From Inhella proteolytica (GTDB taxonomy: Bacteria > Pseudomonadota > Gammaproteobacteria > Burkholderiales > Burkholderiaceae_C): 64,000 nucleotides of DNA. The translations under genes were made by a program, and so were the position numbers. The notes beneath the pieces are model-generated. The model was not told the origin of the DNA, did no database searches, and saw only the letters and a program-made list of their open reading frames with translations. Shown in pieces: positions 22,582 to 50,586 of the stretch; positions within the stretch are counted from its first letter, which is position 1, and each line of letters starts with the position of its first letter. The stretch is from contig NZ_JAEDAK010000011.1 of the NCBI RefSeq assembly GCF_016093275.1, forward strand, positions 1 through 64,000, in the 5' to 3' direction.

Positions 22582-22611
22582 GGCCTGCGGGACAGCCCTC
22601 GGGGGCTTCAC

Positions 22612-22733
22612 CCCCACCCCAGCCAGTCCGCTTGCAAGCGGACTGTCCTTCGCCCGGGGTCGCAGGGCCCGCAGTGGGCCCTGCTCGCTCCGGGCTCAGC
22701 CCCTCCCCGCATTTCTTTGCTGCGCCAAAGAAA
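22612..22733 (+). repeat. Left arm of the 122-bp perfect inverted repeat (element A)
   Basis: Every base of this arm is matched by the reverse complement of 23216-23337. A 122-bp perfect match within 730 bp implies recent duplication or gene conversion, or selection for the paired structure. Outside the arm, similarity continues weakly on the left (a CTTCA with flanking G and C runs). Confidence 0.93.
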
Positions 22734-23215
22734 AGGGGGAAAAAGAAAAGCGCTGAATGCGCGCACGCCGCCTAGGGCGGCGCGCGATTGCACGTCCGGT
22801 TCACATGGCTCCCACACCCCTCCTGGGACTGCGAAAACCTGCCCGCTAAGCTGGCCGGAGTACCGGCCGACTAGACCACCGCAAACCATTGCGGGCTTTC
22901 TGCGATGAATGGACCCCCAACGAGCAACTGGGTACCCCAGGGCGCTGGTTGGGGGTCTGTTCTTCGGAGCGCCGAGGGTGATGGTCTGCGGTGCCCGGGA
23001 CGACCGGTACCCCGGGCGCCTTCGTCGTCCTGACCGTCGAAGTCAGATGAGGGCTCCTCTCAGTGTGAGCCCAAGCACCGCCATCACAGTTCGCCCCTAG
23101 GGCTGAGCGCGGAGCGAGGTGAGTCCCAATGGACTCACCGACCCCGCCGCGAAGGCCCGAGCCCGTCTCGCGGGCGAGGGCGACTGTGTGGGTTGGCGCC
23201 TTTCTTTGCCCCGCG

Positions 23216-23337
23216 TTTCTTTGGCGCAGCAAAGAAATGCGGGGAGGGGCTGAGCCCGGAGCGAGCAGGGCCCACTGCGGGCCCTGCGACCCCGGGCGAA
23301 GGACAGTCCGCTTGCAAGCGGACTGGCTGGGGTGGGG
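23216..23337 (-). repeat. Right arm of the 122-bp perfect inverted repeat (element A)
   Basis: This is the exact reverse complement of 22612-22733. It ends 61 bases before the stop codon of the DUF748 gene on the minus strand, so it would be transcribed in that gene's 3' untranslated region and could fold with the left arm or into its own hairpins. Confidence 0.93.
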
Positions 23338-23398
23338 TTGAAGACCCCACGGGCTCTCACAATCAGCGCTCGACACGCTTCAGGGCGCCGTCACCCCC

Positions 23399-26300
23399 TC
23401 ACTGCTTCGGCAGCACCTCTACCTGCAAAGGCAGCTCAAGCGCATCACCCGGCAGCGCCGCCGGAGCTTCCACCCGCAGGCGCTGCAGGCCCTGGGCGCG
23501 CAGCCAATCCGCCATGGCAGCGGCACGTGCCTGGCCCAGCTGTTCCAGCGCCTGCGGGGCCAGCGGTTCGGCGGCCAGCAGGCGTTGCCAGAGCAGCTCG
23601 GGCAGGGGCCGGCCGGCCAGTTCGGTGCGTTCGGCCTCGCTGAGCGGCGCCGGCGCGCGGCCCAGCGCGGCCTGGGCGCGGGCCAGCAGGCGCTGGGCCA
23701 TGTTGGGGGGCGGTGCGGGCTGGGCCAGCGCGTGGCGTTCTTCCAGGCGCTCCAGTTCGGCGGCGCTGAAGCGTCGCGCGTAGAGCTGGCGCAGGGCCTT
23801 GGCGGATTGGGCGGGCAGCAGCAGCGCGTCCTCGGCTTCGAGCCGGTGACCCTCGATCTGCGCCAGCTCCTCGCGCAGCTGGCGGGCCTTGAGTACCGGG
23901 GCGTCGCGCTCGGGCGTGTAGCCGGCGCTCAGGCGCAGCTGCAGGCCGGGGCGCTTGGCCAGGGCCTGGGCCAGCTGCTGCAGCTTCTCGCGCTCGGGCG
24001 GGGCCAGCTGGGCGCTGCCGGCGGGGAAGCCGATGCGGTCGCTCAGTTCCTTGTCACCGCCGAACAGCGCACCCAGCGCGCGGAAGGGCGCGCTGACGAT
24101 CTTGCCCAGCACATTGGTGATGACCTTCCAGATCAGGCCGCCGTAGCTGAACTTGGGTTCGTCCAGGCTGCCGCTGACGGGCAGGCCGAGGTCGATGCGG
24201 CCCTCGCTGTCTTCCAGCAGCGCGATCGCCAGGTCCAGCGGCAGGGAGGTGGCGCTGGGGCTCTCGATGCGCTCGCCCAGCACCAGGCTTTGCATGACGA
24301 TGCGGTTGTGGCCCTGCAGCTGGCGCGCACGCAGCTGGTAGTCGAGGTCCAGGTCGAGCTTGCCCGAGGCGATGCGGCGGCCGGCGAAGGTGGCGGTGTA
24401 GGGCGTCAGCCGTGTCATCTCGATGTTGCGGAAGCGCAGCTGCAGGTCGCTGAAGCCGGTCGGGTCCAGGGCCTGCAGGCGGCCGCTGGCTTGGGCCTGG
24501 CCGTAGTCGTCCACCTGGCCGTCGAAGCGCAGCTCGGCCGGGCCGCTGCCGGGCGCGCTGTCCAGGCCGGCCAGCTCGCCCTCGCCCTGGTGGATGCGCA
24601 CCGCAAAGGGCAGGGCCAGCGAAAGGTCGGCGAAATCGACGCGGGCCTCGCGCAGGCGCAGGTGCTGCAGGCGCAGGCGGGGCGGCGGGGTGCTGGCCGT
24701 TGTGCTGGCGGCGGCGCCCGTTGCGGCGGACGGCGGCGTCTGCCACAGCCCGTCCCAGTTGACGTTCTTCTGCGCGTCGATCAGCAGCTTGGCCTGCAGG
24801 CCGTCGATCTGCAGCCGGCCCAGGTCCAGCAGGGTGGGCGAGAGGCGCAGGCGCGGCGCTTGCAGGCGGCGCCAGGCCAGGAAGGGTTCGTTCAGCACGC
24901 CGGGCTCGTCCACGCGCAGCGCGGCCAGCGTGGCCTGGCCGGCGAACTGCCAGGCCGGGGCCTGCCGCAGCCGGCCCTGTGCATCGAAGCGGCCGCCCGT
25001 CAGACGCAGCGGCGTGTAGGCGGCCAGATAGGGCTGCAGCGGCGCCAGCGCCAGCTGCTGCAGGCCGAGCTGCAGATCCAGCTGCGGCAGCAATTGGCCT
25101 TGCGCGCGCAGCCGACCGCCGCTGGCCAGCTCGGCCTCGGCCTGCAGCTGCAGCGCGGCCGCACCCAGGCCTTCCAGGCGCGCCTGCGGCAGGCGCAGCG
25201 TCCAGCGCTGCGGCGGCTGCACACCGGCATCGTCCAGCTGCAGCTGGGCGTCGGCCAGGGTCAGGGGGGCGATGCGGGTCTGCCAGGCCGGGCCTGCTGC
25301 GGGCGGTGCGGCTTCGCGGCGCTGCAGGGCTGCCAGCAGGGGCAGGCCGCCGCTGGCATCGCGCTGCAGCTGCAGCGCCGCGCCCTGCAGCCGGATCGGG
25401 CCGAGCTCCAGCTGCCGCGCTGCCAGGTCCAGGGTGCCGCCGCTCAGCTGGGCCTGCGGCAGGCGCAGCCAATCGCCCCCGCGCAGGCCCTGGGTCTGCA
25501 GCTGCAGGCCTTGCAGCTTCAGCGCGGGGGCCTCCGTGCCGCCCCAGGCGGCCTCGGCAGCGAGCTGCAGGTTCAGGGCGTCCAGCTCGACGCGCTGTGG
25601 CTGTTGGAAGCCGGCTTCATCGAGGCGCAGGGCCAGGCCCTGCAGATCGAGCGCGCCGAGCGCGAGCTGCCAGCGTGGGCCGGGGGGCTGCTCAGCCGCG
25701 GCGGCGGCGGGCAGCCAGGCCTCCACATCGAAGCGCCCCGCGGCATCGCGCGCCAGCTGCAGATTGCCGCCCTGCAGGCGCAGCGCAGCGAGCTGCAGGC
25801 GGCGTTGGCGCAGGTCCAGGCGGCCGCCTTCCAGCAGCAGGCGCGGCAGCTGCACGGCGGGTTCGGCCGCCTGCAGGCCTTGCAGGCGCAGGCCGTCAAG
25901 CTGCAGGCGCAGATCGTCCACCTGCAGCTGCGGCGCCTGGCCGGGGTCGCTCTGGGCCTCGTAGCGCAGGCTCAAGGCCATCTGCCCGCCGGGCGGCTGC
26001 ACGGCCAGTGGCGGGTTGGGCATCAGGGCCCAGAGCTTGGCCAGCTGCAGGCCGTCGAGCTGGATCTGGCCCTGGGCGCGCAGCGGCTGCAGGCCGAACT
26101 CGCCGCGCCAGCGCAGCTCGCCACCCAGGCCGGTGCGTGCCACCAGCTGGTGCGCGCCGCGTTCTTCGGGCAGGGTGGAGAGATCGCGCAGCTCCAGCTG
26201 CAGGCGGTCGAGGGTGTCGGTGCGCAGCGCCTGGGCGCGCCGGTCCTCGTAATCGAAGCGCCCCTGCTCGACCTGCAGCAGCGCGATGCGCAGGCGCGGG

Positions 26301-26737
26301 GGCGTGGCATCGGGCGCGGCGGGCTGCGCCTGCAGCGCCGCCAGCAGCGCGCCCCAGTTGCTGCGCCCCTGCGGCAGCAGCTGCAGGCGCAGCTGCGGGC
26401 CCTCCAGGCGCAGCAGGTCCAACGCGGTGGCGCGGTGGCGCAGCGCGCCCAGCAGGTTGATGTCCAGGCGCACCCGCTGCACCCCGGCCAGACGCTCGCC
26501 CTGCGGACTCTGCAACTGCAGCTGCTCCACTTCGAGCGCAATGCGCCAGGGCGAAAAGCGCGCCGCCTGGAAACGCAGCATGTGCCCGGCCAGCCCCGCC
26601 TCGGCCCGCCCCAGGCCCCAGCGCAGCAGCGGCTCCACCGCCAGCGGCAGGGCGATGAACCAGAGCACCAGCAACAGGCCGAGCAGGGCCAGCAGTGCGC
26701 GCAGAGGGCGGGAGGTGGGGAGCAGGCGGCGCGGCAT
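23399..26737 (-). CDS. DUF748 / AsmA-like large envelope protein
   Basis: The protein has 1112 aa. An N-terminal anchor lies at about residues 13-35 (LRALLALLGLLLVLWFIALP). A very long, Leu/Gln-rich beta-repeat body follows, typical of AsmA/DUF748 proteins, with the motif NWDGLWQTPP and a conserved block near residues 770-880 (LTPYTATFAGRRIASGKLDL, GLPVSGSLDEPKFSYGGLIW). After that comes an OmpA-like stretch (FPAGSAQLAPPEREKLQQLA). AsmA-type proteins span the periplasm and are linked to lipid transport or outer-membrane assembly. It stands alone between repeat elements A and B. Confidence 0.87.
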   Translation of the reverse strand: MPRRLLPTSRPLRALLALLGLLLVLWFIALPLAVEPLLRWGLGRAEAGLAGHMLRFQAARFSPWRIALEVEQLQLQSPQGERLAGVQRVRLDINLLGALRHRATALDLLRLEGPQLRLQLLPQGRSNWGALLAALQAQPAAPDATPPRLRIALLQVEQGRFDYEDRRAQALRTDTLDRLQLELRDLSTLPEERGAHQLVARTGLGGELRWRGEFGLQPLRAQGQIQLDGLQLAKLWALMPNPPLAVQPPGGQMALSLRYEAQSDPGQAPQLQVDDLRLQLDGLRLQGLQAAEPAVQLPRLLLEGGRLDLRQRRLQLAALRLQGGNLQLARDAAGRFDVEAWLPAAAAAEQPPGPRWQLALGALDLQGLALRLDEAGFQQPQRVELDALNLQLAAEAAWGGTEAPALKLQGLQLQTQGLRGGDWLRLPQAQLSGGTLDLAARQLELGPIRLQGAALQLQRDASGGLPLLAALQRREAAPPAAGPAWQTRIAPLTLADAQLQLDDAGVQPPQRWTLRLPQARLEGLGAAALQLQAEAELASGGRLRAQGQLLPQLDLQLGLQQLALAPLQPYLAAYTPLRLTGGRFDAQGRLRQAPAWQFAGQATLAALRVDEPGVLNEPFLAWRRLQAPRLRLSPTLLDLGRLQIDGLQAKLLIDAQKNVNWDGLWQTPPSAATGAAASTTASTPPPRLRLQHLRLREARVDFADLSLALPFAVRIHQGEGELAGLDSAPGSGPAELRFDGQVDDYGQAQASGRLQALDPTGFSDLQLRFRNIEMTRLTPYTATFAGRRIASGKLDLDLDYQLRARQLQGHNRIVMQSLVLGERIESPSATSLPLDLAIALLEDSEGRIDLGLPVSGSLDEPKFSYGGLIWKVITNVLGKIVSAPFRALGALFGGDKELSDRIGFPAGSAQLAPPEREKLQQLAQALAKRPGLQLRLSAGYTPERDAPVLKARQLREELAQIEGHRLEAEDALLLPAQSAKALRQLYARRFSAAELERLEERHALAQPAPPPNMAQRLLARAQAALGRAPAPLSEAERTELAGRPLPELLWQRLLAAEPLAPQALEQLGQARAAAMADWLRAQGLQRLRVEAPAALPGDALELPLQVEVLPKQ

Positions 26738-26792
26738 GGCTTCAGCTTACGGCGGGCAGGACCTCCTCTGGCAATGGAAGTTGGCTGCTCGG

Positions 26793-27412
26793 AAGACCCC
26801 GCCGGGTCTCGGCCCGGCGGCCGACCTACTTCTCTTTGCTTCGCCAAAGAGAAGTAGGCAAGAGAAAGGCGACCCCGATGCCTGCGCCCCCGGCTTTGCC
26901 GGGGGTGCCCTGTGGTGCTCGAAGAGCGGGCCCAGGCGCAAAACTCACTTCGCTCGCGTTGCTCGCTCCGTTCAAACAATTGCGCCAAGTCAGATCACGA
27001 AGCGCGCTACCGCGCGCGGGCCCACTCTTCTGTGCTCCTCGGCTTGGCATAGGGGAGACCCCAAACAGCCAAGCAGCCAACAGCCGAATACCGAACAGCC
27101 CGGACGTCACCCATCGCGCCGTTTCCCGGCTGTTGGCTGTTCGGCTGTTCGGGCTGCTGCCCCTATGCGCTGCCGAGCAGCACAGCTTGCCTGGGCAGCG
27201 TGCGAAGCACGCGTTCCCGTCATGCTCGGTCCAACTGTTTGAACGGAGTGAGCGAAGCGAACGCAGTGAGTTTTGGGCCGGCCCAGGCAAGCGAGCAGCG
27301 CAGGGGACCCCAGCCGCAGGCTGGGGCTGCGCATCGGGGCTTGACCTTTTGGTTCCTTTTGGGTCAAGCCAAAAGGAACTCGCCTGCCGGGGCGAGACCC
27401 GGCGGGGTCTTG
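26793..27412. repeat. Composite palindromic intergenic element B
   Basis: This 620-base element fills the divergent intergenic region between the DUF748 gene and frmA. The outer arms are AAGACCCCGCCGGGTCTCG (26793-26811) and its reverse complement at the right end. Inside them are hairpins: CTACTTCTCTTTG/CAAAGAGAAGTAG and CCCCCGGC/GCCGGGGG on the left, and CCCCAGCC/GGCTGGGG and GTTCCTTTTGG/CCAAAAGGAAC on the right. Next come inverted modules with AACTCACT...CTCCGTTCAAACA. The centre has CAGCCGAATACCGAACAGCC (27081-27100) opposed by CGGCTGTTGGCTGTTCGGCT. The reverse-complement copy is element C. No gene is seen. Confidence 0.88.
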
Positions 27413-27480
27413 CGCTGACCGCCAATCAGGCTCGCCACGCTCCGCACTAGCATCCGCGCCCAGACCTTAAGGAGCCCCCC

Positions 27481-28587
<1,107 letters not shown>

Positions 28588-28589
28588 AC

Positions 28590-29429
28590 ATGAGCTGGAA
28601 CCCCGAAGTGATTGGCGAGTACCGCTGCTTCGGCGGCGTGCAGGGCTACTACCGCCACGCCTCCAGAGCCGTCGGCCTGCCGATGCAGTACAGCCTGTAC
28701 CGCCCGCCCGGCACGCCGCGCGGTCTGCTGCTCTGCCTGGCCGGGCTGACCTGCAGCGAGGAAACCTTCCCCATCAAGGCCGGCGCGCAGCGCCTGGCCA
28801 GCGCGCTGGGCCTGGCCCTCTTGAGCCCCGACACCAGCCCGCGCGGCACGAACATCCCCGGACAGGCCGACGACTGGGGCTTCGGCGTGGCCGCAGGCTT
28901 CTACCTGGACGCCACGCAGGCGCCCTGGGCCCCGCACTGGCGCATGGAAAGCCATGTGATGCAGGAGCTGCTGCCGGCCGTGCAGGCGCAGCTGGGCGGG
29001 CTGCCCACCAGCATCCTGGGCCACTCGATGGGCGGGCATGGCGCGCTGACGTTGGCGCAGCGCCACCCCGGGAGCTTCCAGTCGCTGTCGGTCATCGCGC
29101 CCATCAGCGCGCTCAGCCAATGCCCCTGGGGACAGAAGGCCCTGCCGGCCTATCTGGGCGCGGACGAGGCGCAATGGGCCGCGCACGACGCCAGCGCGCT
29201 GATGCGCGCGCAAAGCGCGCCGCCCTTCCCGGCCGGCATCCTGATGGACCAGGGCGAGGCCGACCAGTTCCTCAGCGATCAGCTCAAGCCCGAGCTGTTC
29301 GAGGCCGCCTGCGCGGCGGTGGGCCAGCCGCTGACGCTGCGCCGCCATGCCGGCTACGGGCATGGCTATTACTTCGTCAGCACCGTCATCGACGACCACC
29401 TGCGCCACCACGCGGCGGCGCTGGGCTGA
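28590..29429 (+). CDS. fghA: S-formylglutathione hydrolase
   Basis: The protein has 279 aa, of the alpha/beta hydrolase (esterase D) family, and releases formate and glutathione from S-formylglutathione. LLCLAGLTCSEETF is the family's oxyanion and conserved-Cys segment. LGHSMGGHGALTLA holds the catalytic Ser, MDQGEADQFL the Asp, and GHGYYFVSTVI the His. The ATG at 28590 follows the frmA stop by 2 bases. Its stop shares the palindrome TGATCGATCA with the stop of the convergent gene. Confidence 0.95.
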   Translation: MSWNPEVIGEYRCFGGVQGYYRHASRAVGLPMQYSLYRPPGTPRGLLLCLAGLTCSEETFPIKAGAQRLASALGLALLSPDTSPRGTNIPGQADDWGFGVAAGFYLDATQAPWAPHWRMESHVMQELLPAVQAQLGGLPTSILGHSMGGHGALTLAQRHPGSFQSLSVIAPISALSQCPWGQKALPAYLGADEAQWAAHDASALMRAQSAPPFPAGILMDQGEADQFLSDQLKPELFEAACAAVGQPLTLRRHAGYGHGYYFVSTVIDDHLRHHAAALG

Positions 29430-29433
29430 TCGA

Positions 29434-29775
29434 TCAGGGCCTGGGGCGACGCAGCCAGCGCCCCACCCAGCGCAGGCAGCCGTAGGCGCCGCTGAAGAGC
29501 ACACAACCGATGGCGATCAGGCCCAGCGTCAGCGGCCAGTCGTCGGCGCCCATCCAGACGGCCAGCCCCAGCAGGGCCAGCGCGTACAGCGCCAGCAGGC
29601 GCAGCAGGCCCGGCCCGGGGCGCCACACGGCCCACAAGCCGGCACCCATGCCCAGGAGCACGGCCGAGTAGCTGACGGCCACGGCCAGCATCCAGTCGCT
29701 GCCGCCATGGGCCCAGGCGGCCGGGCTCAGGCCCGCCAGCAGCAGGGCCAGGCCCCAGCGTGGGGCAGACCTCAT
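29434..29775 (-). CDS. Small membrane protein with signal peptide
   Basis: The gene encodes 113 aa. An N-terminal signal-like segment ends near SPAAWAHG, and further hydrophobic stretches lie at about 29-49, 57-75 and 80-100. The HGGSDW after the signal is followed by what look like two or three membrane spans. Its start overlaps the stop of the upstream LprI-like gene by 4 bases (ATGA). It is the last gene of the GlxA/DedA operon. No family is recognised. Confidence 0.65.
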   Translation of the reverse strand: MRSAPRWGLALLLAGLSPAAWAHGGSDWMLAVAVSYSAVLLGMGAGLWAVWRPGPGLLRLLALYALALLGLAVWMGADDWPLTLGLIAIGCVLFSGAYGCLRWVGRWLRRPRP

Positions 29776-37045: not shown

Positions 37046-37046
37046 G

Positions 37047-37949
37047 ATGAGCTGGCTGCGCCGAGGTTTGCTGCTGTGCGCTGCCGCCTGGTTGGTGCTG
37101 CGCCCCGCGCTGGCGGCGGAGACCATTCGCTGGGTGGTGCACGACATGCCGCCCGTCTTCAGCCTGCCCGGCGGCCACACGCCCAAGCGCGCCAGCGAGT
37201 TCGGCCATGGCGAGCTGGATGGCCTGCAGCGCCTGCTGGTGGCGCGCCTGCCGCAGTTCCAGCACGAGTTCGTGGTGGCGGTGCCCACGCGCTTCGAAGC
37301 CCTGGTGCGCCAGGGCGAGCCGATCTGCAGCCTGCTGCCGCGCCGCACGCCCGAGCGCCTGAGCTGGCTCTACTTCACGCCCACGCACCCGCCGCTGAAC
37401 TCGCGCGCGGTGCACCTCGTCACGCGCGCCGAACTGCTGCCGCGCCTGAACGCCCTGGGCACGCCGTTGAGCCTGGCGCGCGTGCTGCAGGAGGCCGGGC
37501 TGCAGGGCGTGCTGACGCGCGACCGCTCCTTCGGCCCGCGCATCGACCAGCTGCTGCAAACCCAGGGCCAAGCCCTGCTGCAGGGGGCGCTGGCCTGGCG
37601 CGGGCAGAACCTGCTGAGCATGCTGCAGGCAGGCCGCATGGACTACACGCTGGAACACCCCGTGCTGGTGGACGAATACCTGCGCCAGCAAGGCAGCGGG
37701 GTGGCGCTGGTCAAGCTGCCGCTGCTAGAGGCGCAGGCGATCAGCCAGGCCACCGTGGCCTGCGCCCGCAACCCGGCGGGCCGGCGCCACATCGAGGCCA
37801 TCGACGCCGTCATCCGCGCGCTCGCCCGCGCGCCCGACCGCAGCGCCTGGCTGAAGGAATGGCTGGGCGAACTGCCCGAGCCGGGCGACCGCGAGCGCAT
37901 CGACCGCTTCATGGACGCGCGGGCGCGGCGTGGGGCGCAGATCGAGTGA
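37047..37949 (+). CDS. Solitary periplasmic SBP_bac_3-like protein (TIGR02285-type), second copy
   Basis: The product has 300 aa with a signal peptide (cleavage near PALAA-ET). IRWVVHDMPPVFSLPGGHTP, GHGELDGLQRLLVARLPQFQ and RTPERLSWLYFTPTHPPLN parallel the 18270 gene along the whole length, as does the C-terminal GDRERIDRFMDARARRGAQI. No transporter subunits are adjacent. It is convergent with the sensor kinase gene downstream. The ligand is unknown, and a sensory role is possible but unproven. Confidence 0.8.
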   Translation: MSWLRRGLLLCAAAWLVLRPALAAETIRWVVHDMPPVFSLPGGHTPKRASEFGHGELDGLQRLLVARLPQFQHEFVVAVPTRFEALVRQGEPICSLLPRRTPERLSWLYFTPTHPPLNSRAVHLVTRAELLPRLNALGTPLSLARVLQEAGLQGVLTRDRSFGPRIDQLLQTQGQALLQGALAWRGQNLLSMLQAGRMDYTLEHPVLVDEYLRQQGSGVALVKLPLLEAQAISQATVACARNPAGRRHIEAIDAVIRALARAPDRSAWLKEWLGELPEPGDRERIDRFMDARARRGAQIE

Positions 37950-40799: not shown

Positions 40800-41245
40800 C
40801 AAGACCCCGCCGGGTCTCGCCCCGGCAGGCGAGTTCCTTTTGGCTTGACCCAAAAGGAACCAAAAGGTCAAGCCCCGATGCGCAGCCCGAACGGCCAGCA
40901 GCCGGGAAGCGGCGTGATGAGTGAAGTCCGGGCTGTTCGGTTTGCAGCTGTTGGCTGTTGGCTGTTGGCTGTTTGGAGCCTCCCCTATGCCAAGCCGAGG
41001 AGCACAGAAGACGCGGGCCCGCGCGCGTCAGCGCGCCTCGTGCTCTGACTTGGCCCAACTGTCTGAACGGAGCGACCGCAGTGAGCGAAGTGAGTTTTGG
41101 GCCTGGGCCCGCTCTTCGCGCACCGCAGGGAACCCGTCGCCGCAGGCGAGGGGCGCAGGCATCGGGGGCGCCTTTCTTGGCCTACCTTCTTTGGCGAAGC
41201 AGAGAAGGCAGGTCGGGTGCAGGGGTGAAGCCCCTGCGGGCTCCT
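40800..41245. repeat. Composite palindromic intergenic element C (inverted copy of B)
   Basis: This gene-free stretch is the reverse-complement relative of element B. Positions 40800-40888 are identical to the reverse complement of 27324-27412 (89 bases), and 40981-41011 to that of 27026-27056 (31 bases). It has the same order of modules: outer arm, GTTCCTTTTGG/CCAAAAGGAAC hairpin, CAGCC repeats (GCTGTTGGCTGTTGGCTGTT), GAACGGAGCGA...AGTGAGTTTT, and a TTCTTTGGCGAAGC-type hairpin. It is about 170 bases shorter than B, having lost part of the core. The right end has a hairpin like the one at 5477-5501. Confidence 0.88.
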
Positions 41246-43575: not shown

Positions 43576-44475
43576 TCAGGCCGCCGCCTGCGCCACGCAT
43601 GCCTGCAAATGCTCGATCAAGGCCCGCAGCGCCGGCCGCAGGCTGCGCCGTTCGGGCATCAACAGCACCAAGGGCGTGGGCTCGCCCAGCCAGTCGGGGC
43701 AGAGCCGCTCCAGGCGGCCGGCCTGCAGATCGGCCGCCACGTCAAGCGCGCTCTTGTAGGCGATGCCGGCGCCGGCCAGGGCCAGGCGGCGCACGGCGTC
43801 GCCATCGTCGGCCGCCAGCGGGCCGCCCACTTCCACACGCACGCTCTCGGCACCGCGCTCAAAGGTCCACACGCGGTGCAGCTGGTCCTGGATGGCGAAG
43901 CACAGGCAGTCGTGTTCGCGCAGCTGCTCGGGGTGGCTGGGGCGGCCGCGGCGCTGCAGGTACTCGGGCGCGGCCACCAGCACGCGGCGGTTCTGCGGCG
44001 CCAGCGGCAGGGCCACCAGGCCGGAGTCGGGCGGGGCGCCGTAGCGCAGCGCCAGGTCGAGCTGCTCGCGCAGCAGGCCGGCCAGGCGGTCGGCCACCTG
44101 CAGGCGCAGCTCGATGCCGGGATGCTGGCGGCGGAATTCCAGCAGCCAGTCCAGCGCCAGGTTGCGGCCCAGGTCGGAGGGCAGGGCCACATGCAGCCGG
44201 CCCTGGATCTGGCAATGCCCGGCGCACAGCGCCTCATGGCCCTGGGTGATCAGCTCCAGGCCCTGCTCGCAGGACTGCAGGAACTGCTCGCCCGCCAAGG
44301 TGAGGCGCAGCTGGCGGGTGGAGCGCAGGAACAGCGGCACGCCGATCTCGGCCTCCAGGCGCTTGATGGCGGCGCTCACCGCCGCCGGGCTCAGGTTCAG
44401 CGCCCGCGCCGCCTCGGAAAAGCTGGCGGCGCGGGCGGCGCGCACGAAGAGCTGCAGGTCTTGGAGGGCTTTCAT
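43576..44475 (-). CDS. LysR-family transcriptional regulator
   Basis: The protein has 299 aa. The N-terminal helix-turn-helix is LQLFVRAARAASFSEAARAL followed by NLSPAAVSAAIKRLEAEIGV. The effector domain starts at about 90 (LHVALPSDLGRNLALDWLLE) and has the typical PSDLGRN form of the CrgA/DsdC-like branch. It is divergent from the oxidoreductase gene at 44582. The dyad TTTCAA-N7-TTGAAA in between is a plausible binding site. Confidence 0.92.
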   Translation of the reverse strand: MKALQDLQLFVRAARAASFSEAARALNLSPAAVSAAIKRLEAEIGVPLFLRSTRQLRLTLAGEQFLQSCEQGLELITQGHEALCAGHCQIQGRLHVALPSDLGRNLALDWLLEFRRQHPGIELRLQVADRLAGLLREQLDLALRYGAPPDSGLVALPLAPQNRRVLVAAPEYLQRRGRPSHPEQLREHDCLCFAIQDQLHRVWTFERGAESVRVEVGGPLAADDGDAVRRLALAGAGIAYKSALDVAADLQAGRLERLCPDWLGEPTPLVLLMPERRSLRPALRALIEHLQACVAQAAA

Positions 44476-44483
44476 GCGGTGAT

Positions 44484-44502
44484 TTTCAAACAGGCGTTGA
44501 AA
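44484..44502. promoter_or_regulatory. Candidate LysR operator
   Basis: TTTCAA (44484-44489) and TTGAAA (44497-44502) are perfect 6-bp inverted arms separated by 7 bases, containing a T-N11-A core. They lie 8 bases upstream of the LysR start and 80 before the oxidoreductase start, where autoregulation and activation sites are usual for LysR pairs. Confidence 0.55.
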
Positions 44503-44581
44503 CTGAATGCTGGCGCAGTGGGTTTTTCTCCTTATGGCAAGCAGCCAAAGTTCAGCCCATCGCAACCGGAGCCTGAAACCC

Positions 44582-45598
44582 ATGAAAGCCATTGCCTACC
44601 AACACAGCCTGCCCATCAGCAATCCCCTGGCCCTGCAGGACGTCGACCTGCCCGCCCCCGAGGCGCGCGGCCACGACCTGCTGGTCGAGGTCAAGGCCAT
44701 CGCCGTCAACCCGGTGGACCACAAGATCCGCCAGGGCGTGCAGCCGGAAGCCGGGCAGTGGAAGGTGCTAGGCTGGGATGCCGCCGGCGTGGTGCGCGCG
44801 GTGGGCGAGCAGGTCACGCGCTTCAAGGTGGGCGACCGCGTCTGGTACGCCGGCGCCATCGACCGCCCCGGCAGCTATGCCGAGCTGCAGCTCGTGGACG
44901 AGCACCTGGTGGGCGCCATGCCCGCCAGCCTGGACTTCGCGGCCGCGGCCGCCCTGCCGCTGACCACGATCACCGCCTGGGAGCTGCTGTTCGAGCGGCT
45001 GGGCGTTGAACAGGGTGGCGGCCAGGGCCAGAGCCTGCTCGTCATCGGCGCGGCCGGCGGCGTGGGCTCCATCCTGGTGCAGCTGGCGCGCCAGCTGACG
45101 CAGCTGACGGTGATCGCCACCGCCTCGCGCCCCGAGACCGAAGCCTGGGTGCGTGAACTCGGCGCCCACCAGGTCATCAACCACCGCCGCCCGCTGGCCG
45201 AGGAAATCCAGCGCCTGGGCCTGCCCGCGCCCCAGCTGGTGGCCAGCCTGACCGAGACCGGGGCGCATTTCGCGCAGATCGTCGAGCTGATGGCACCGCA
45301 GGGCAAGCTGGCGCTGATCGACGACCTGCAGCCCGGTCAGCTGGACGTGATGGCGCTGAAGCGCAAGAGCCTCTCCTTGCACTGGGAAATGATGTTCACG
45401 CGCTCGCTGTTCAACACCGCCGACAAGATCCGCCAGGGCGAACTGCTGAGCGAGGCCGCGCGCCGGGTGGATGCCGGCACGCTGCGCAGCACCGTGGGTG
45501 AGCATTTCGGGCGCATCAACGCCAGCAACCTGCGGCGTGCGCAGGCGCTGCAGGAAAGCGGTGCGGCGCGCGGGAAGATCGTGCTGGAAGGGTTCTGA
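44582..45598 (+). CDS. Zinc-independent quinone oxidoreductase-like alcohol dehydrogenase (MDR)
   Basis: The product has 338 aa, of the medium-chain dehydrogenase/reductase superfamily. VEVKAIAVNPVDHKIRQGVQ and LGWDAAGVVRAVGEQVTRFK mark the catalytic domain. LLVIGAAGGVGSILVQLARQ is the NADPH Rossmann motif. The structural-zinc cysteines are missing, as in quinone oxidoreductases. It probably reduces quinones or unsaturated carbonyls, and is likely to be controlled by the divergent LysR gene. Confidence 0.9.
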   Translation: MKAIAYQHSLPISNPLALQDVDLPAPEARGHDLLVEVKAIAVNPVDHKIRQGVQPEAGQWKVLGWDAAGVVRAVGEQVTRFKVGDRVWYAGAIDRPGSYAELQLVDEHLVGAMPASLDFAAAAALPLTTITAWELLFERLGVEQGGGQGQSLLVIGAAGGVGSILVQLARQLTQLTVIATASRPETEAWVRELGAHQVINHRRPLAEEIQRLGLPAPQLVASLTETGAHFAQIVELMAPQGKLALIDDLQPGQLDVMALKRKSLSLHWEMMFTRSLFNTADKIRQGELLSEAARRVDAGTLRSTVGEHFGRINASNLRRAQALQESGAARGKIVLEGF

Positions 45599-45611
45599 GC
45601 GCGACCGGCCC

Positions 45612-46451
45612 TCAAGGGCCGGTGTGCCCGGCCTGTTCCAGTGCACGCGCCTCGGCCTGGTGATAGGCCGCGGAATCGCGCACGGCCGCAATGTCACGCC
45701 ACAGGTCCAGCACCTGTCGCGGGTTGCGCCGCCAGTAGGCATGCGAGAAGACGGTGAAGTAGGCGCGCTCCTGCAACAGGGGCTGCAGCTTGCGCAGGCG
45801 CGCGGCCAGGCCGGGGTTGCCGCGCAGCACGCGGTCGGCCTCGTTGACCTGCAGCGCCGCCGCCTGCACATGGCCGCGCGCCAGCTTTTCCAGATTGGCC
45901 TCGGCCGTGCGCGCGCCTTCGTCCACCGTGAGGCCCAGGCCGCGCACCACCGAGGCAATCGAGTAGCCGGACTGCACACCCACCCGCAGCGCCTCGGTCG
46001 GTGCGCCACTCAAGTGCTGGCCGTCCCAGCGCAGCGGGCTGGCCTTGGCCACGTACCAGCTGTAGCGGTTGTGGCGCAGGGCCAGGCTTTCGTCCACCAT
46101 GCCGCGCCGGGTCGGGTACACGCCCAGCTCCTCGCGCTCGGGCAGATGGCTCATGCTCAGCACGACGTCGCGCTCGCCGTTCTTCAGTTCGGCCAGGCAG
46201 CGCTTCCAGGGCAGCAGGGCGATCTGAACCGGCACGCCGCTGCGTCGCGCCAGCAATTCCAGGAACACGAAATCCAGGCCCTCGCGCTGGATGCGCCCCT
46301 GGGCATCGGCCATGCGCCAGGGGATGTGGGGCACATCGTTCAGGCAGACCCGCAGCGGTGTGGGCTCCGCGGTCTGCGCCGCGGCCTGCCCCAGGCCGCC
46401 CAGGGCCAAGAGCAGCGTGAGGGTGCACAGCACAAGGCGGGGCAGGCGCAT
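45612..46451 (-). CDS. Solitary periplasmic amino-acid-binding-type protein (SBP_bac_3)
   Basis: The protein has 279 aa with a signal peptide (cleavage near AAAQ-TA). LRVCLNDVPHIPWRMADAQG, GLDFVFLELLARRSGVPVQI and ALLPWKRCLAELKNGERDVV are family 3 binding-protein motifs, and NRYSWYVAKASPLRWDGQHL follows. No ABC permease or ATPase is nearby. It differs in sequence from the 18270/37047 pair and is closer in style to the 61197 gene. The ligand is unknown. Confidence 0.82.
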   Translation of the reverse strand: MRLPRLVLCTLTLLLALGGLGQAAAQTAEPTPLRVCLNDVPHIPWRMADAQGRIQREGLDFVFLELLARRSGVPVQIALLPWKRCLAELKNGERDVVLSMSHLPEREELGVYPTRRGMVDESLALRHNRYSWYVAKASPLRWDGQHLSGAPTEALRVGVQSGYSIASVVRGLGLTVDEGARTAEANLEKLARGHVQAAALQVNEADRVLRGNPGLAARLRKLQPLLQERAYFTVFSHAYWRRNPRQVLDLWRDIAAVRDSAAYHQAEARALEQAGHTGP

Positions 46452-46564
46452 GGAACTTCCTGGCAGGGCAGTGCCTGCAGTGTGCGCCCGCCGCGGTGAT
46501 TTGGGGGGCTGGCGAGGATCCGCGCATCACCAAGTGGAGGTCGTTTCCAACGGGGCTGAACCTC

Positions 46565-46590
46565 GGGCGCGGAAGTTTTCTTCCGCGCCC
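46565..46590. promoter_or_regulatory. Perfect palindrome in the divergent region before the SPFH gene
   Basis: GGGCGCGGAA (46565-46574) and TTCCGCGCCC (46581-46590) are perfect 10-bp arms around GTTTTC. It lies between two divergent starts (46451 and 46672), so a terminator role is unlikely. Most of it recurs at 40745-40761 before the response regulator gene, suggesting an operator. Confidence 0.5.
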
Positions 46591-46671
46591 ACGCCCACAC
46601 CCTCCCGGCGCCGGCATGGCGGGTTCGCGGGGTGCAAGGGAACCATGGCGGCACCGCAACCGGAGCCGACC

Positions 46672-47877
46672 ATGAACGACACCCACCCCACCGAAGCCCT
46701 GCCCCAAGCCACGCTGCGCACGCAGCTCACCGAACTGGGCCAGGCCCTGCAATCCCGCGCGCTGCGCCGCAGCGCCCTCGCCCTGGCCGCCGTGGCCGCA
46801 CTGGCGGGTGGCACGCACTGGCTGCTGGGCCAGCTGCAAACCGTGCCGCGCGGCAGCGTGCTGGTGCGCACGGGCATGGGCAAGCCCGAGCTCATCGCCG
46901 AAGGCCGCGCCTGGGTGCTGCCCGGCCTGCACGAGGCACGCGTGCTGCCGGCGCGCGACCTGCTGCTGCGCCGCGATGCCCGCCAGACCGTGCAGACCGT
47001 CGAAGGCCTGGCCGTGGGCCTGGAGGTGCAGCTGCGCCTGCAGCTGGACCCGCAGCGCTACGCCCAGCTGGCGCGCGAGCTGCCCGAGAACTTCGAGAAG
47101 GAGCTGGTGGCGCCGGCGCTCAACACCGTGCTGCTGCCGCTGGTGGCGCAGCGCACCGTGCGCGAGCTGTTCTCCACCCAGCGCGGCGAGATCGAGAAGC
47201 TCGCCCTGCTGCAGCTGCGCCAGCGCCTGGCCGCCGATGGCCTGATCCTGAAGTCGCTCAGCTTCGGCCAGCTGACGCTGCCGGACGACTACCGCCGCGG
47301 CATGGAGAGCCTGCTCAGCGAAGGCCTGGCCGCCGAGAAGATGCGCTACACGCTGGAGCTGAAGGAGAAGGAAGGCCTGCAGACTGAGATCGAGGCCAAG
47401 GCCGCCGGCAAGCAGCGCGAGATCGCCGCCGAGGCCTCGGCGCGCGAGCAGCTCATCGCCGCCAAGGCGCAGGAAGAGGCGATGAAGCATGTGCTGCCCT
47501 TCAAGCAGCGCCAGATCGAGCAGCGCCAGCTCGAAGCCGAGGCCGAGCGCCAGGCGCGCGTGAAGCTGGCCGAGGGTGCCGCGCAGGCCCGGCGCATCGA
47601 AGCCGAGGGCGAGGCCGCGGCGCGCCAGAAGCTGGCCGATGCCGAGGCCTACCGCGTGGCCGAGCTGGGCAAGGTCAACGCCATTCAGATGGAGCGCGAG
47701 GGCCAGCTCATCACCAAGCACCCGCTGCTGGTGCAGAAGACCCTGGCCGACAAGCTCGGCGACAAGGTGCGCGTCATCGTGGCGCCCCCGGGCATTGCCG
47801 GCAGCCTGATGGGCGGCCCGCTCGAAGCCCAGCCCCAGAAGGCCAAGGCCGAAGACACCGAAGCCAGCGCCGAGTAA
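46672..47877 (+). CDS. SPFH/band 7 (prohibitin-type) membrane protein
   Basis: The product has 401 aa. One membrane anchor at about 34-53 (LALAAVAALAGGTHWLLGQL) is followed by an SPFH domain (VPRGSVLVRTGMGKPELIAE, QTVEGLAVGLEVQLRLQLDP). A long Ala/Glu/Gln-rich coiled coil spans about 235-350 (KEKEGLQTEIEAKAAGKQRE, QIEQRQLEAEAERQARVKLA). Such proteins form membrane microdomain scaffolds or protease-associated rings. It precedes a secreted SH3-type protein gene on the same strand. Confidence 0.88.
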   Translation: MNDTHPTEALPQATLRTQLTELGQALQSRALRRSALALAAVAALAGGTHWLLGQLQTVPRGSVLVRTGMGKPELIAEGRAWVLPGLHEARVLPARDLLLRRDARQTVQTVEGLAVGLEVQLRLQLDPQRYAQLARELPENFEKELVAPALNTVLLPLVAQRTVRELFSTQRGEIEKLALLQLRQRLAADGLILKSLSFGQLTLPDDYRRGMESLLSEGLAAEKMRYTLELKEKEGLQTEIEAKAAGKQREIAAEASAREQLIAAKAQEEAMKHVLPFKQRQIEQRQLEAEAERQARVKLAEGAAQARRIEAEGEAAARQKLADAEAYRVAELGKVNAIQMEREGQLITKHPLLVQKTLADKLGDKVRVIVAPPGIAGSLMGGPLEAQPQKAKAEDTEASAE

Positions 47878-47927
47878 ACCCCCACCCAACCCCCGGCCCA
47901 CCCCCCAGTTCACCCCAGCCCCACACC

Positions 47928-49406
47928 ATGAACGCCCTTCGCAACAGCCTCGCCACTTTGGTGGCCAGCGCCGCCGCCCTTGCCCTGGCCTTGATTGCCC
48001 CCACGCCCGCCCGCGCGGCCAGCGCCCTGGTGCTCCAGGACAGCACCCCGCTGCGCGCCGCTGCCAAGGACAGCAGCCCGCTGCTCACCCCGCTGTGGCG
48101 CGGCGAGGCGCTGGAGCTGCGCGGGGCCAAGGGCGACTGGCTGCAGGTCTGGGACCACGCCCGCGAGCGCGGCGGCTTCGTGCGTGCCGAGCGCCTGCTG
48201 CCTCTGCCCACGGGCGAGGCCGCCCTGCCCGAGCTGCTGGCCCAGCTGCGCCTGCTGCGCCAGCAAGCCGGCGCGGAAAGCCTGGGCCTGGGCGTGGCCG
48301 CCGCACTGATCGAACGCGCCGATGCCGACTGGCTGGCCAGCCCGCAGGGCGCCGAACTGCTGGACGCACTGGTGCAGCTGCAAGAACGCCTGGCCGAGCG
48401 CGTCCAGAGCGCCGGCCCCCAGCAGCAAACCAGCAGCGCCGCGCACGCCGAGGTGGCCAAGCGCTACGGCTACCCGCTGCGCAGCCTGGCCCAGGCCGAT
48501 GGCAGCCAGCGCATCTGCCCGAACGAGGAACCGGCCCGCCTGCTGCGCGCCCATGCCAGCGCCAGCGCCGCACAGCAAGCCCGCGCCGCCCTGGCCCTGA
48601 CGCGACCCGACTGCACCGCGGCCGAGCTGCTGCCCAGCCAACTGCTCGCCCTGCACGAGCAACGCACCGCCTGGCTCGAAGGCATCGCCCTGAACGAGCT
48701 GCCGCCCACGCTGCGCAACCGCCTGCTGCTGCGCCGCGCCGGCGCTTGGAGCAGCCTGGCCTTTGCCGAACGCGCCCGCGACATGCGCCCCGCCGCCACC
48801 CTGGCCCTGCAGGCCTGGGCCCAGCTGATTCCGGCCGAGCTGGGCGAGGACGATGCCGCCGCGCTGCGCGAGGCCGCCATCCGCCTCGCCCCGATGCGCC
48901 ACGCCGTGCAAGCCCGCCCGACCCAGCTGCGCTGGGGCAAGCTGGAGCTGCGCCTGGAAGCCGCCGGCCCCGGCCAGACCTGCTTCCAGCTGCTGGAGCA
49001 GCGCGGCCCGACCGCCGAGCCGCGCGGTGCGCGCCAGTGCAGCCATGGCGCCGTGCATTGGGCCAGCGCGCGCCTGGCCCCCGATGGCCGCAGCCTGGTG
49101 CTGGCCGTGCAGCCGCTCGACGGCTGGACCGAGCTGTGGCGCCTGCAGGCCGACGGCCCGCTGCAGGTGCTGCCGCCGAATAGTTCCGCGCCCGGCCTGG
49201 GCGTGGCCGAGTTCGCCGGCTTCATGGGCCCGCAGCTGCTGGTGGCGCGCGAGGCCATCGCCGAGGGCAAGACCCTGCGCCGCTTCGAGGTCTATGGGCC
49301 CGAGCTGCTGCAGCCGCAGCGCTGGGCGGGTGAGTACGCGCTGCTGGGCGCCTTTCAGCGCGGGGTGGATGCGGGGTGGAGGGCGGGGAGCCCGCTGGCG
49401 CGCTGA
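47928..49406 (+). CDS. Secreted protein with N-terminal SH3-like domain
   Basis: The protein has 492 aa. A signal peptide (cleavage near ARAA-SA) is followed at about 33-92 by a bacterial SH3-like domain (LVLQDSTPLRAAAKDSSPLL, WRGEALELRGAKGDWLQVWD). An Ala/Leu/Arg-rich helical region follows (about 95-340), then a beta-rich C-terminus (LRWGKLELRLEAAGPGQTCF, RLAPDGRSLVLAVQPLDGWT). It should lie in the periplasm, perhaps bound to peptidoglycan. It follows the SPFH gene by 50 bases and may share its transcript. The family beyond SH3 is unknown. Confidence 0.78.
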   Translation: MNALRNSLATLVASAAALALALIAPTPARAASALVLQDSTPLRAAAKDSSPLLTPLWRGEALELRGAKGDWLQVWDHARERGGFVRAERLLPLPTGEAALPELLAQLRLLRQQAGAESLGLGVAAALIERADADWLASPQGAELLDALVQLQERLAERVQSAGPQQQTSSAAHAEVAKRYGYPLRSLAQADGSQRICPNEEPARLLRAHASASAAQQARAALALTRPDCTAAELLPSQLLALHEQRTAWLEGIALNELPPTLRNRLLLRRAGAWSSLAFAERARDMRPAATLALQAWAQLIPAELGEDDAAALREAAIRLAPMRHAVQARPTQLRWGKLELRLEAAGPGQTCFQLLEQRGPTAEPRGARQCSHGAVHWASARLAPDGRSLVLAVQPLDGWTELWRLQADGPLQVLPPNSSAPGLGVAEFAGFMGPQLLVAREAIAEGKTLRRFEVYGPELLQPQRWAGEYALLGAFQRGVDAGWRAGSPLAR

Positions 49407-49433
49407 AGAAGCCTTCGCCGATGATCGGTTCGC

Positions 49434-49988
49434 ATGAAACCGTCGAATCCCATAGACCAGTTCGCTGTCAGCGCTTCGAGCTTTTGCCGTTGGTGCGAGG
49501 CAGCGCCCAGCGAGCAGGCTGACAGGGAACTGCGTTCACGAGAGGTTCGGCGACTGCTCGCTCGTCTGATCGCCGACGCGTTGGCGCTTCCAGAGACGAA
49601 CCCTGGCAACTCGCCGGATTCGGTGCGCGCCACGGACGACGAGTTGAAGGCCTTGACCCCACGACTGGCCGACCTTCCGGTCGATAAGTACGGTGTGTAT
49701 TTCTGGCCTGCGGACCTGCAATCGGATCCCGTGGTGGCGAGTTTGATTGACGACCTGCAGGAAATTTATCGGGACTTGAGGGATGGCCTGTGGCTTTATG
49801 AGCAAGGCCACATCGACGCTGCGGCCTGGCAATGGCTACTTCTGTTTGAGATTCATTGGGGACATCACGCCAGCAACGCCCTGCATGCTTTGCAGGGCCA
49901 GACTGCCAACACTTCGTACGGTGCTGCAGTCTTAATCGGCGGTAAGACGAGCCACACCAGCGCTTTGAAGGATCTTGGCGGTTTGTAA
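49434..49988 (+). CDS. DUF5063 family protein
   Basis: The product has 184 aa, soluble and acidic. VYFWPADLQSDPVVASLIDD and LQEIYRDLRDGLWLYEQGH, followed by AAWQWLLLFEIHWGHHASNA, match the DUF5063 family, which has no known function. Codon use is less GC-biased than in neighbours, suggesting a different origin or weaker expression. Repeat element D starts directly after its stop codon. Confidence 0.82.
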   Translation: MKPSNPIDQFAVSASSFCRWCEAAPSEQADRELRSREVRRLLARLIADALALPETNPGNSPDSVRATDDELKALTPRLADLPVDKYGVYFWPADLQSDPVVASLIDDLQEIYRDLRDGLWLYEQGHIDAAAWQWLLLFEIHWGHHASNALHALQGQTANTSYGAAVLIGGKTSHTSALKDLGGL

Positions 49989-49989
49989 G

Positions 49990-50586
49990 AGCCCGCCGGG
50001 ATTTCGTCCCGGCAGCCGACTCCCTTTCTTGCTCGTGCAAGAAAGGAAGCAAAGAACACGGCCCCGATTCCGGCGCCCGGCTTGCAGCCGGGTCCCCTGC
50101 GCTGCGCGAAATACTGGGCCGGCCCAAAACTCACTGCGTTCGCGGAGCTCACTCCGTTCAGACAGTTGGGCCGAGCTTGATGGGTGGGCGTGCGTGCCGC
50201 ACGCCGCCCAGCATTTCTGTGCTGCTCGGCACCTGCATAGGGGCAGCGGCCAACAGCCGAATACCGAACAGCCCGCGCTGCAACCTCCTGCGCGCCGTTT
50301 CCCGGCTGTTCGGCTGTTGGCTGCTCGCCCTTCGTAGCTGCCGAGCAGCACAGCGGCTTGGGGCGCGCGCGCAGCGCGCATCAACTTCTGGCCCAGGGCG
50401 GCCGTTCAAACGGAGAGAGTGAAGCGAACGTAGTGCGTTCCGCCCTGCAGCCCCAAGACGCGAGCAGCGCAGGGAATCCCCGGCCGCAGGCCGGGGACAG
50501 CGGAGCGGGCGCGTGTTCTTTGCCTACTTTCTTGCACGAGCAAGAAAGTAGGTCGGCTGCCGGGACGAAAGCCCGGCGGGATCTCT
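49990..50586. repeat. Composite palindromic intergenic element D
   Basis: This stretch of nearly 600 bases without genes lies between the convergent DUF5063 and DUF2867-like gene ends. The outer arms (CGTCCCGGCAGCCGAC on the left, its reverse complement on the right) enclose hairpins CTTTCTTGC/GCAAGAAAG and CTACTTTCTTGC/GCAAGAAAGTAG, GC-rich hairpins (CCCGGC/GCCGGG, CCCCGGCC/GGCCGGGG), then the AACTCACTGCGTTCGC / CTCCGTTCAGACAG module. The inner arms are CTGTGCTGCTCGGCA (50217-50231) and its exact reverse complement (50339-50353). The core CAGCCGAATACCGAACAGCC (50254-50273) is identical to that of element B. Confidence 0.88.

Follow-up and report, generated by a model that had tools for sequence, protein, structure and literature searches.

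The window analysed here, a stretch of 64,000 nucleotides from Inhella proteolytica (contig NZ_JAEDAK010000011.1), contains four gene-free blocks, A, B, C and D, which on balance probably belong to a superfamily of mobile repeats, dispersed and for the most part non-autonomous, with folded RNA ends that are putatively read outward. Through many sequence changes the ends of these elements keep the predicted plan of an H-type pseudoknot with a third strand along the stem. What appears to be new is that covarying base triples and pseudoknot ends are combined in a repeat that looks mobile. Base-by-base reading located the four blocks where an initial annotation of the window had put them, and the CTACTTCTCTTTG/CAAAGAGAAGTAG hairpin, the CCCC/GGGG hairpin, the AACTCACT...TCCGTTCA module and the CAGCC/GGCTG centre are present as it described them. 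That annotation did not include the pseudoknot and the triplex reported below, nor did it recognize the two families or the broad taxonomic range.

Architecture of the end module

An element consists of two structured halves facing each other around a replaceable centre, usually 400–600 bp in total; single halves occur too. From outside to inside, each end is built of a GC hairpin, a pyrimidine/purine hairpin with a stem of 8–15 bp and a loop mostly of 4–6 nt, a purine run, and a short stretch complementary to the loop. The loop and its downstream partner were found as TCGCC/GGCGA, GCGCC/GGCGC, CCGCC/GGCGG, GTCGCC/GGCGAC, TTGCC/GGCAA and CGTG/CACG, and further as TGTG/CACA, TGCCC/GGGCA, TCGTC/GACGA, TCACC/GGTGA, TGTC/GACA and CTTGACC/GGTCAAG. 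A double change within one family is seen in a copy from the same genome (L069), where GCGCC/GGCGC is replaced by GCGTC/GACGC. Modules lacking a good partner exist as well, for example those with the loops TCTTGCC (several copies) and CTTGGCC.

Alignment of 63 end modules with MAFFT gave no usable columns for the pseudoknot partner, and alignment-free tests were therefore used. The longest pairing between the loop and the downstream part averages 3.94 bp, as compared with 3.12 bp when the downstream parts are dealt out anew among the modules (highest of 1000 shuffles, 3.57); this test took one example for each of 37 loop types from 177 distinct modules picked independently of pairing. Looser sets of 50 loops (4.16 vs 3.30 bp, with none of 200 shuffles reaching the lowest observed mean) and of 75 loops (4.04 vs 3.23 bp) gave similar values. 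The loop of the outer GC hairpin is also complementary to the bases that follow it (PK1; 2.68 vs 2.19, highest of 500 shuffles 2.41). It is doubtful that a pseudoknot with both pairings at once forms here: the two hairpins share bases, many loops are only ~4 nt long and the linkers measure 1–3 nt. Since the complementarity nevertheless exceeds its null, PK1 is more likely to be a switch between two hairpins.

Mirror register of the third strand

The relation of the purine run to the hairpin was examined by parsing both stretches to one form, A(p)G A(q) for the hairpin's purine arm and A(p')G A(q') for the run behind it, a mirror being defined by p'=q and q'=p. Such parsing is possible for 158 of 180 distinct modules, and 102 are informative (p different from q). 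The run is a mirror of the arm in 92 of the informative modules, a direct copy in none and neither in 10; when the runs are dealt out anew, the mean number of mirrors is 14.7 and the highest in 5000 trials is 28. The mirrors span seven asymmetric classes, and collapsing by source leaves 53 mirrors out of 62, again with no direct copy. An earlier module set gave 90 mirrors and 0 direct copies. In the left module of block B, for instance, the purine run AAGAGAAA is the mirror of AAAGAGAA.

A mirror register is useless for ordinary pairing and is required by a Hoogsteen third strand, which points to base triples. The covariation thus displays both features of a triple-helix pseudoknot, namely the loop-downstream pairing (weaker in a rule-anchored version of the test) and a third strand in Hoogsteen register. 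We are highly confident that, at the level of sequence comparison, loop pairing and mirror register together represent a real structural signature of the module ends. The complementary strand, read outward, has the order short stem, pyrimidine loop, long stem and 3-nt loop, and in it the long stem has its purine strand aligned in parallel with the pyrimidine loop; we take this order to be the plan of the telomerase RNA pseudoknot.

Inner half, centres and strand preference

In each intact half of the B-type and pasteurellacean elements, a stem P5 encloses the internal loop AACTC..TCARACA and there is a variable inner hairpin; this loop, situated between two variable stems, is not part of the A family. 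P5 has a mean length of 7.2 bp, as compared with 2.8 bp after random re-pairing of its sides (maximum of 100 shuffles 2.99), and reaches at least 6 bp in 137 of the 169 distinct motif instances, which include a few chance hits in genes. Stem composition follows the host, being GC-rich where the genome is so and AT-rich in Pasteurellaceae, whereas the loop motif is constant. In the A core, one stem switches as a whole among copies of a single genome (CGCCGCCTAGGGCGGCG, GCCGGCCTCGGGCCGGC, GCCGACCTAGGGTCGGC). The suggestion of a structured RNA made by the initial annotation gains support from the covariation of stems, loop pairing and predicted base triples.

The centres vary: besides the A core and the B core there are others in other taxa, unique DNA (L069) and an AAA ATPase gene (L218). 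In the first of these loci (L069:1620-3004) two facing A-family halves of ~226 nt each surround ~900 bp of DNA whose longest frame has no Pfam match, and in the second, from Methylomonas (L218:2825-5213), two facing halves surround an AAA_21/AAA_15 ATPase gene, a possible cargo. Elements of Pasteurellaceae (L287, L289, L291) carry AAGTGCGGT, presumably the DNA-uptake signal sequence, in or beside the centre, often as inverted pairs.

The mismatches in the stems are unevenly distributed. On the inward strand, A.C exceeds G.T in the hairpin stem (24 vs 3, with 18 of 45 others), in P5 (5 vs 2, with 32 of 39 others, mostly T.C) and in the loop pairing (13 vs 6, with 16 others), the counts not being phylogenetically independent and including a recurrent mismatch, CTCAC/GTAAG, in Comamonadaceae and Oxalobacteraceae. 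As A.C on the inward strand corresponds to G.U on the outward one, which is tolerated by RNA, the bias favors, together with the geometry of the triples, an RNA read outward. It supports such an RNA without proving it.

Two families and their copies in the genome

Blocks B, C and D, which the initial annotation had seen to share sequence, form one repeat family with 22 element bodies and a few lone ends in the 4.98 Mb genome. The B query alone gives 57 matches that merge into these 22 bodies and lone ends, a match at another place showing 89% identity over 599 nt of the query (E 1.2e-229). Block A is the head of a second family with 24 bodies, 19 of them having the full core and 5 ending inside it. 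The opinion that A shares mainly the architecture was right as to the core, which makes a separate family, and wrong as to the end module, which is common to both families and matches at the sequence level (e.g. 85% over 41 nt between an A end and a B-family copy). The similarity exceeds chance by far: the genome has 22+19 occurrences of the exact end pattern and 0+0 of its backwards control.

The context of the copies was examined with a crude gene caller, which misjudged several genes of the window, including the ones beside A and B, and did not call the DUF5063 gene next to D (these were corrected separately). No called gene lies inside any of the 44 copies considered, two further copies at contig edges being left out, and 5 of the 44 overlap a called gene by 19–76 bp, at least one of these overlaps being a miscall. 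According to the same caller, the copies lie in 24 codirectional, 12 convergent and 8 divergent gaps, and the 163 background gaps longer than 40 bp comprise 91, 24 and 48, respectively. The composition of the 40 bases outward from each end was determined for 30 own copies: read toward the element, the bases 10–20 out are 37% G, 34% T, 22% C and 7% A (71% G+T). Read outward, the same flanks are C/A-rich and T-poor and slightly resemble a Rho-loading sequence.

Distribution among bacteria

One of the outcomes by which the initial annotation would have been refuted, a similarity that disappears beyond random GC-rich hairpins in a genome-wide search, did not occur; the similarity holds genome-wide and across genera. 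The B query has matches in 24 of the 60 genomes of a draw and the A core query in 5 of 60 (own genome included in both); the A core itself is matched in two relatives (G005, 366 nt; G003, 233 nt), and the remaining two of the four match the end module. The exact pattern TCTTTGCNNCGCCAAAGA, which overlooks diverged modules, was found in at least 118 stretches of named genomes, some of them chance hits in genes. Among the matches listed (80 of the at least 118 stretches) are Comamonadaceae, Oxalobacteraceae, Zoogloea, Neisseriaceae, Chitinibacteraceae, Pasteurellaceae, Cardiobacteriaceae, Methylomonas and others. When 369 genomes were drawn evenly from the class, 7 of them (own included) had the pattern, with a single hit in 3 of the 6 others.

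A 72-base end query, which diverged forms could escape, matched 14 of 72,556 plasmid records, one of them a plasmid of Ilyobacter (Fusobacteriota), and 0 of 20,395 E. coli records. The same query with the same limit found 0 matches in 50,697 phage records, and a phage origin was accordingly discarded; in viral contigs the pattern hit 16 stretches, with a module-like hit in one only (L272). Judged by these matches, the end module is spread patchily over Beta- and Gammaproteobacteria and a Fusobacteriota plasmid.

Filled and empty sites

The presence or absence of elements at the same intergenic site in related genomes supports their being mobile repeats, as the initial annotation had suggested in listing a non-autonomous mobile element among its candidates. 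Between fabH and fabD (gene names here and at dapF by NCBIfam), 3 of 10 genomes have the element and the other 7 do not. The filled site holds 551 query bases between the flanks, in full in G068 and shortened in G062 and G106, and the empty gap is 20–56 bp. The copy in G062 (L342) lacks ~240 bp relative to that in G068 (L347), and the aligned parts overlap by ~25 bases, as if a deletion had joined two like stretches within the element.

For the ilvY-ilvC gap, 61 Pasteurellaceae genomes were searched and the 30 best matches plus one further locus were examined; 18 of these 31 loci hold both genes, and 13 with no ilvY within reach were dropped. Among the 18 loci, 6 have the full element (gap 677–704 bp), 2 a half element (366 and 390 bp), 9 no element (139–266 bp) and 1 another palindrome. 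The last (L296 of G091) is a different palindromic insert with ends TTTCTTCGTTTTTTT...AAAAAAACGAAGAAA and a CCCCTCTTTGCTAAAGAGGGG hairpin, at the place occupied in relatives by the pseudoknot element. In Pasteurella multocida, dapF and the gene before xerC are separated by 459 bp that contain an element; in a Lonepinella genome dapF and that neighbor are less than 30 bp apart. A Lonepinella element lies between purH and purD. Blocks B and C have one flank each recognizable in three congeners, with no element in the stretches fetched there; these cases are weaker, the far flank not having been found.

At two sites common to three close Haemophilus-like genomes, the two copies are 95% alike in G068 and 86% in G106, and over 322 nt a G106 copy at one site has 99% identity to a G068 copy at the other, suggesting exchange between copies. 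Of 92 facing module pairs 88 lie within 900 bp, and 132 modules are unpaired, some due to cut loci. The four wider pairs comprise one around the AAA ATPase gene, one around unique DNA and two unconvincing ones; on reading, none was convincing as a transposon, i.e. as an autonomous copy bearing cargo.

The four blocks in the window

The features of the blocks are collected in Table 1. An automatic module scan (a pyrimidine-rich hairpin of at least 7 bp followed by a purine run) was applied to the full window on both strands. Its matches are confined to the four blocks and cover 6 of the 8 block ends; by sequence reading, the two ends missed (B left and C right) just fail the regular expression or the perfect-stem rule. 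The arms of A are 94% complementary over 163 nt.

Table 1. Positions of the elements and their parts in the window.
Feature	Position	Strand	Description	Basis
Element A	22591..23358		Second family; 163-nt inverted end arms enclosing a distinct 442-nt core; inverted repeat I1; 24 genome bodies	
A left end pseudoknot module	22712..22753	+	TTTCTTTG-CTGCGC-CAAAGAAA; loop pairs with GCGC downstream (predicted)	Module scan
A right end pseudoknot module	23196..23237	-	Predicted loop pairing GCGCC/GGCGC	Module scan
Element B	26793..27412		First family; full inverted two-half element	
B left-end outer GC hairpin	26801..26824	+	Loop complementary to the bases directly after the hairpin (PK1); two possible hairpins overlap	Sequence reading, group test
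B left end pseudoknot module	26826..26872	+	Stem CTACTTCTCTTTG/CAAAGAGAAGTAG; loop TCGCC pairs with GGCGA (predicted)	Sequence reading, group tests
B left half internal-loop motif AACTC..TCAAACA	26942..26978	+	Conserved; between the sides of covarying stem P5	
B right half AACTC..TCAAACA motif	27236..27272	-	Same motif as in the B left half	
B right end pseudoknot module	27340..27379	-	Variant CTTGACC/GGTCAAG, 7 bp	Module scan
Element C	40800..41245		First family; left half with internal deletion	
C left end pseudoknot module	40833..40872	+	CTTGACC/GGTCAAG	Module scan
C right half AACTC..TCARACA motif	41060..41096	-	Conserved motif	Module scan
C right end module	41168..41212	-	Mismatched stem, hence missed by the automatic scan	Sequence reading
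Element D	49987..50586		First family; full inverted two-half element	
D left end pseudoknot module	50023..50060	+	Loop CGTG pairs with CACG (predicted)	Module scan
D left half AACTC..TCAGACA motif	50128..50164	+	Conserved motif	Module scan
D right end pseudoknot module	50512..50552	-	CGTG/CACG	Module scan
Lone outer end hairpin CCCGCAGGGGCTTCACCCCTGC	5468..5498		Outside the four blocks; inverted match to the C right end (25 nt in genome search)	

Convergent, divergent and codirectional settings had all been reported for the blocks. This stands for A, which is convergent (LysR gene + / DUF748 gene -), B, which is divergent (DUF748 gene - / alcohol dehydrogenase gene +), and C, which is codirectional (response regulator gene - / ankyrin-repeat gene -); D is only probably convergent (DUF5063 gene + / open reading frame - with no family match). 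Elsewhere in the window, positions 55279-55470 (+) hold a manganese (yybP-ykoY) riboswitch (75.5 bits vs a cut-off of 45 in Rfam), and 18359-18658 and 37124-37423 form a 300-nt direct repeat of 75% identity, perhaps paralogous genes.

Proposed mechanism and alternative explanations

If the blocks are mobile repeats as proposed, the active molecule would be an RNA read outward through each end. This strand would fold as an H-type pseudoknot whose pyrimidine loop forms U.A-U and C+.G-C triples, and the folded ends would be recognized by a trans-acting factor for copying or insertion. As a by-product, transcripts crossing the element either way would meet a very stable RNA knot, at which they would end or which they would traverse, and by which the neighbors could be insulated and insertion between genes tolerated. 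A more specific version can be put forward only tentatively: mobility or copy control may proceed through the outward RNA, with its telomerase-type triple-helix pseudoknot and a protein-binding internal loop, recognized in trans by a putative enzyme, possibly a reverse transcriptase or a ribonucleoprotein.

Several observations weigh against this explanation. No linked transposase, recombinase or reverse transcriptase was found by a search aimed at Y1_Tnp alone, and the 11 Y1_Tnp stretches taken from the own genome and from relatives hold neither an end module nor an AACTC motif near the gene. A target-site duplication was not found in the 30 of 34 copies having both outer anchors (3.67 vs 3.50 ± 0.15, with 80 of 500 shuffles as high), a test in which a duplication of 2–3 bp could hide and whose first run had placed some end anchors within the element. 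Near-identical strains gave no instance of a copy that had moved, and the two sites common to three Haemophilus-like genomes mentioned above speak of slow turnover. As to the fold, a first mirror test on whole purine runs gave 6.73 for mirror and 6.72 for direct (mirror null 6.02); it was uninformative because the Gs of the loop pairing are counted in whole runs, and the refined tests do separate mirror from direct. All these counts refer to distinct sequences and not to independent events. The rule-anchored pairing count is weak, 52% paired vs 42% shuffled with the highest of 2000 shuffles also at 52%, and sliding the partner by -1 again gives 52%; the reason is that the rule misplaces a partner starting with A. 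Finally, mismatches other than A.C and G.T (mostly T.C) are common, and many C.A cases represent one recurrent position.

It is possible, though unlikely, that the elements are bidirectional RNA boundary elements, i.e. mobile-derived sequences selected by the host as 3'-end protectors, processing sites or Rho-assisted terminators for transcripts from either side. The G.U preference of the outward strand, the position of the predicted triple helix on the exit side and the C/A-rich, T-poor outward flanks agree with this idea, as does the enrichment of convergent gaps (12 of 44 vs 24 of 163) and the thinning of divergent ones (8 of 44 vs 48 of 163), as counted with the crude caller. However, elements are found in divergent promoter gaps that need no transcript end (ilvY-ilvC, block B), which bears out the earlier remark that a pure terminator role does not fit; their presence at orthologous sites is patchy, and the end hairpins of the own copies that were read have no U-tract. 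An ordinary intrinsic terminator, a GC hairpin with a U tract on the exit strand, was rejected on inspection of the C/A-rich and T-poor outward flanks of own copies.

Somewhat less probable still is a site acting at the DNA level, either a cruciform or H-DNA in supercoiled DNA serving as a topological or nucleoid site, or folded single-stranded DNA recognized by a recombinase; for the nucleoid- or supercoiling-related site listed by the initial annotation the evidence is neutral. The inverted halves make whole-element palindromes, and the mirror repeats present here are classic formers of H-DNA; moreover, a draw of 60 genomes (own included) has Y1_Tnp (IS200-like) genes in 45, and among 12 Pasteurellaceae tested 10 have them. 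In opposition to this, A.C outnumbers G.T by 42 to 11 overall, though both should be equally bad in DNA (the cases are not independent), and the element-carrying genomes G025 (13 B matches), G062 and G093 have no Y1_Tnp match, some of the element genomes with no match being drafts. The same absence counts against the elements being large relatives of repetitive extragenic palindromes (REP) spread by a RAYT (Y1_Tnp) protein, an improbable explanation in spite of their intergenic position, many copies and inverted pairs of structured units and of the frequency of Y1_Tnp in the same genomes. The unit measures ~200 nt instead of 20–40, no constant GTAG/CGTC tag was seen, and RAYT-like genes are not flanked by units: in Pasteurellaceae only 1 of 17 Y1_Tnp stretches has an end module (L324, ~1 kb from the gene), a motif match in L334 lies inside a gene and a module in L327 is ~6 kb away from the Y1_Tnp gene. 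A RAYT link is thus unsupported, the Y1_Tnp stretches of relatives and Pasteurellaceae having no consistent end modules. One relative (G020) has 20 Y1_Tnp matches in 4.3 Mb, several as two adjoining fragments, as if an IS200-like family were expanding and partly broken.

Chance or mutation bias, by which GC-rich hairpins would arise repeatedly through replication slippage, has a negligible probability. Template switching does easily yield palindromes, but the same module and internal motif recur across very different base compositions, and the P5 covariation (7.2 vs 2.8 bp) and the mirror register (92:0) speak strongly against it.

Significance and comparison with known systems

Under the more specific version above, a transposable element would, to our knowledge, for the first time be seen to carry a bacterial triple-helix RNA domain. 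If the proposed explanation is correct, some Beta- and Gammaproteobacteria would owe much of their gene-free DNA to one old class of structured mobile repeats that is blank in the annotated records seen. The ends would then record the evolution of a triple helix with unusual clarity, third-strand bases changing along with the stem they contact, and the elements a natural set of variants for the study of bacterial RNA triple helices. It would also become testable how dispersed palindromic repeats having no transposase spread and what their folds do.

Rfam 15 has no match to the elements: in the window only the riboswitch at 55279-55470 reaches the gathering score. Seven element loci gave 5 weak matches (E up to 1) and block A another 5 (E up to 5), all scoring far under the family cut-offs. 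No description of the elements was found by searches of the open-access literature, libraries of insertion sequences (IS) and of miniature inverted-repeat transposable elements (MITEs) being outside this comparison; the parts consulted of PMC2267715, PMC8632094, PMC6429828 and PMC3733652 do not describe them.

As portrayed in the parts consulted of PMC3116915, PMC2817692 and PMC3733652, REPINs and BIMEs resemble the present elements in being dispersed intergenic inverted pairs of structured units, non-autonomous and in high copy. Unlike them, the unit here is ~200 nt long with a predicted pseudoknot and a conserved internal loop, and it has no constant tag and no adjacent RAYT; instead of a 20–40 bp palindrome with a GTAG or CGTC tag, the copies inspected show ~200-nt units with stems of 8–15 bp. 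Bacterial MITEs such as NEMIS/Correia, ERIC and MITEAba12, as far as the sections seen of PMC6382973 and PMC10969869 describe them, are likewise short and gene-free with inverted ends and variable orthologous sites. The present elements also have no coding capacity, are short, bear inverted ends and occur at occupied and empty orthologous sites, with no target-site duplication found in 30 copies. Their ends, however, are long folded modules and not short sequence-conserved terminal inverted repeats, and no parent insertion sequence was found, IS libraries not having been searched.

The TM-ECO intrastrand triplex, in the portions consulted of Holder et al. 2015 (PMC4666352), likewise places a pyrimidine stem, a purine stem and a second purine run on one strand. 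The present modules differ in their A/G-rich, variable sequence in mirror register, in the loop-downstream pairing and in their location at both ends of a 400–600 bp element, which is not among the triplex motifs in those portions of Holder et al. (PMC4666352). The centres of elements from a Variovorax plasmid (L279) and from Noviherbaspirillum (L203) have CCCTCTCCC...GGGAGAGGG...GGGTGAGGG-like runs that resemble the TM-ECO motif (Holder et al.). The type III toxin-antitoxin RNA CptI (PMC4627078, in the part seen) is a bacterial H-type pseudoknot RNA with tertiary contacts, as is predicted here. The modules of the present elements are facing pairs and not tandem arrays as in that system, toxin genes having been outside our searches.

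We know of no template or reverse transcriptase for these elements. The triple-helix pseudoknots of telomerase RNA and of the ENE/MALAT1 type are composed of a long stem, a pyrimidine loop for U.A-U and C+.G-C triples, a short stem and a short third loop. The outward strand of the end modules follows the same predicted plan, and it differs from these RNAs in being bacterial, repetitive and situated at the ends of a dispersed element.

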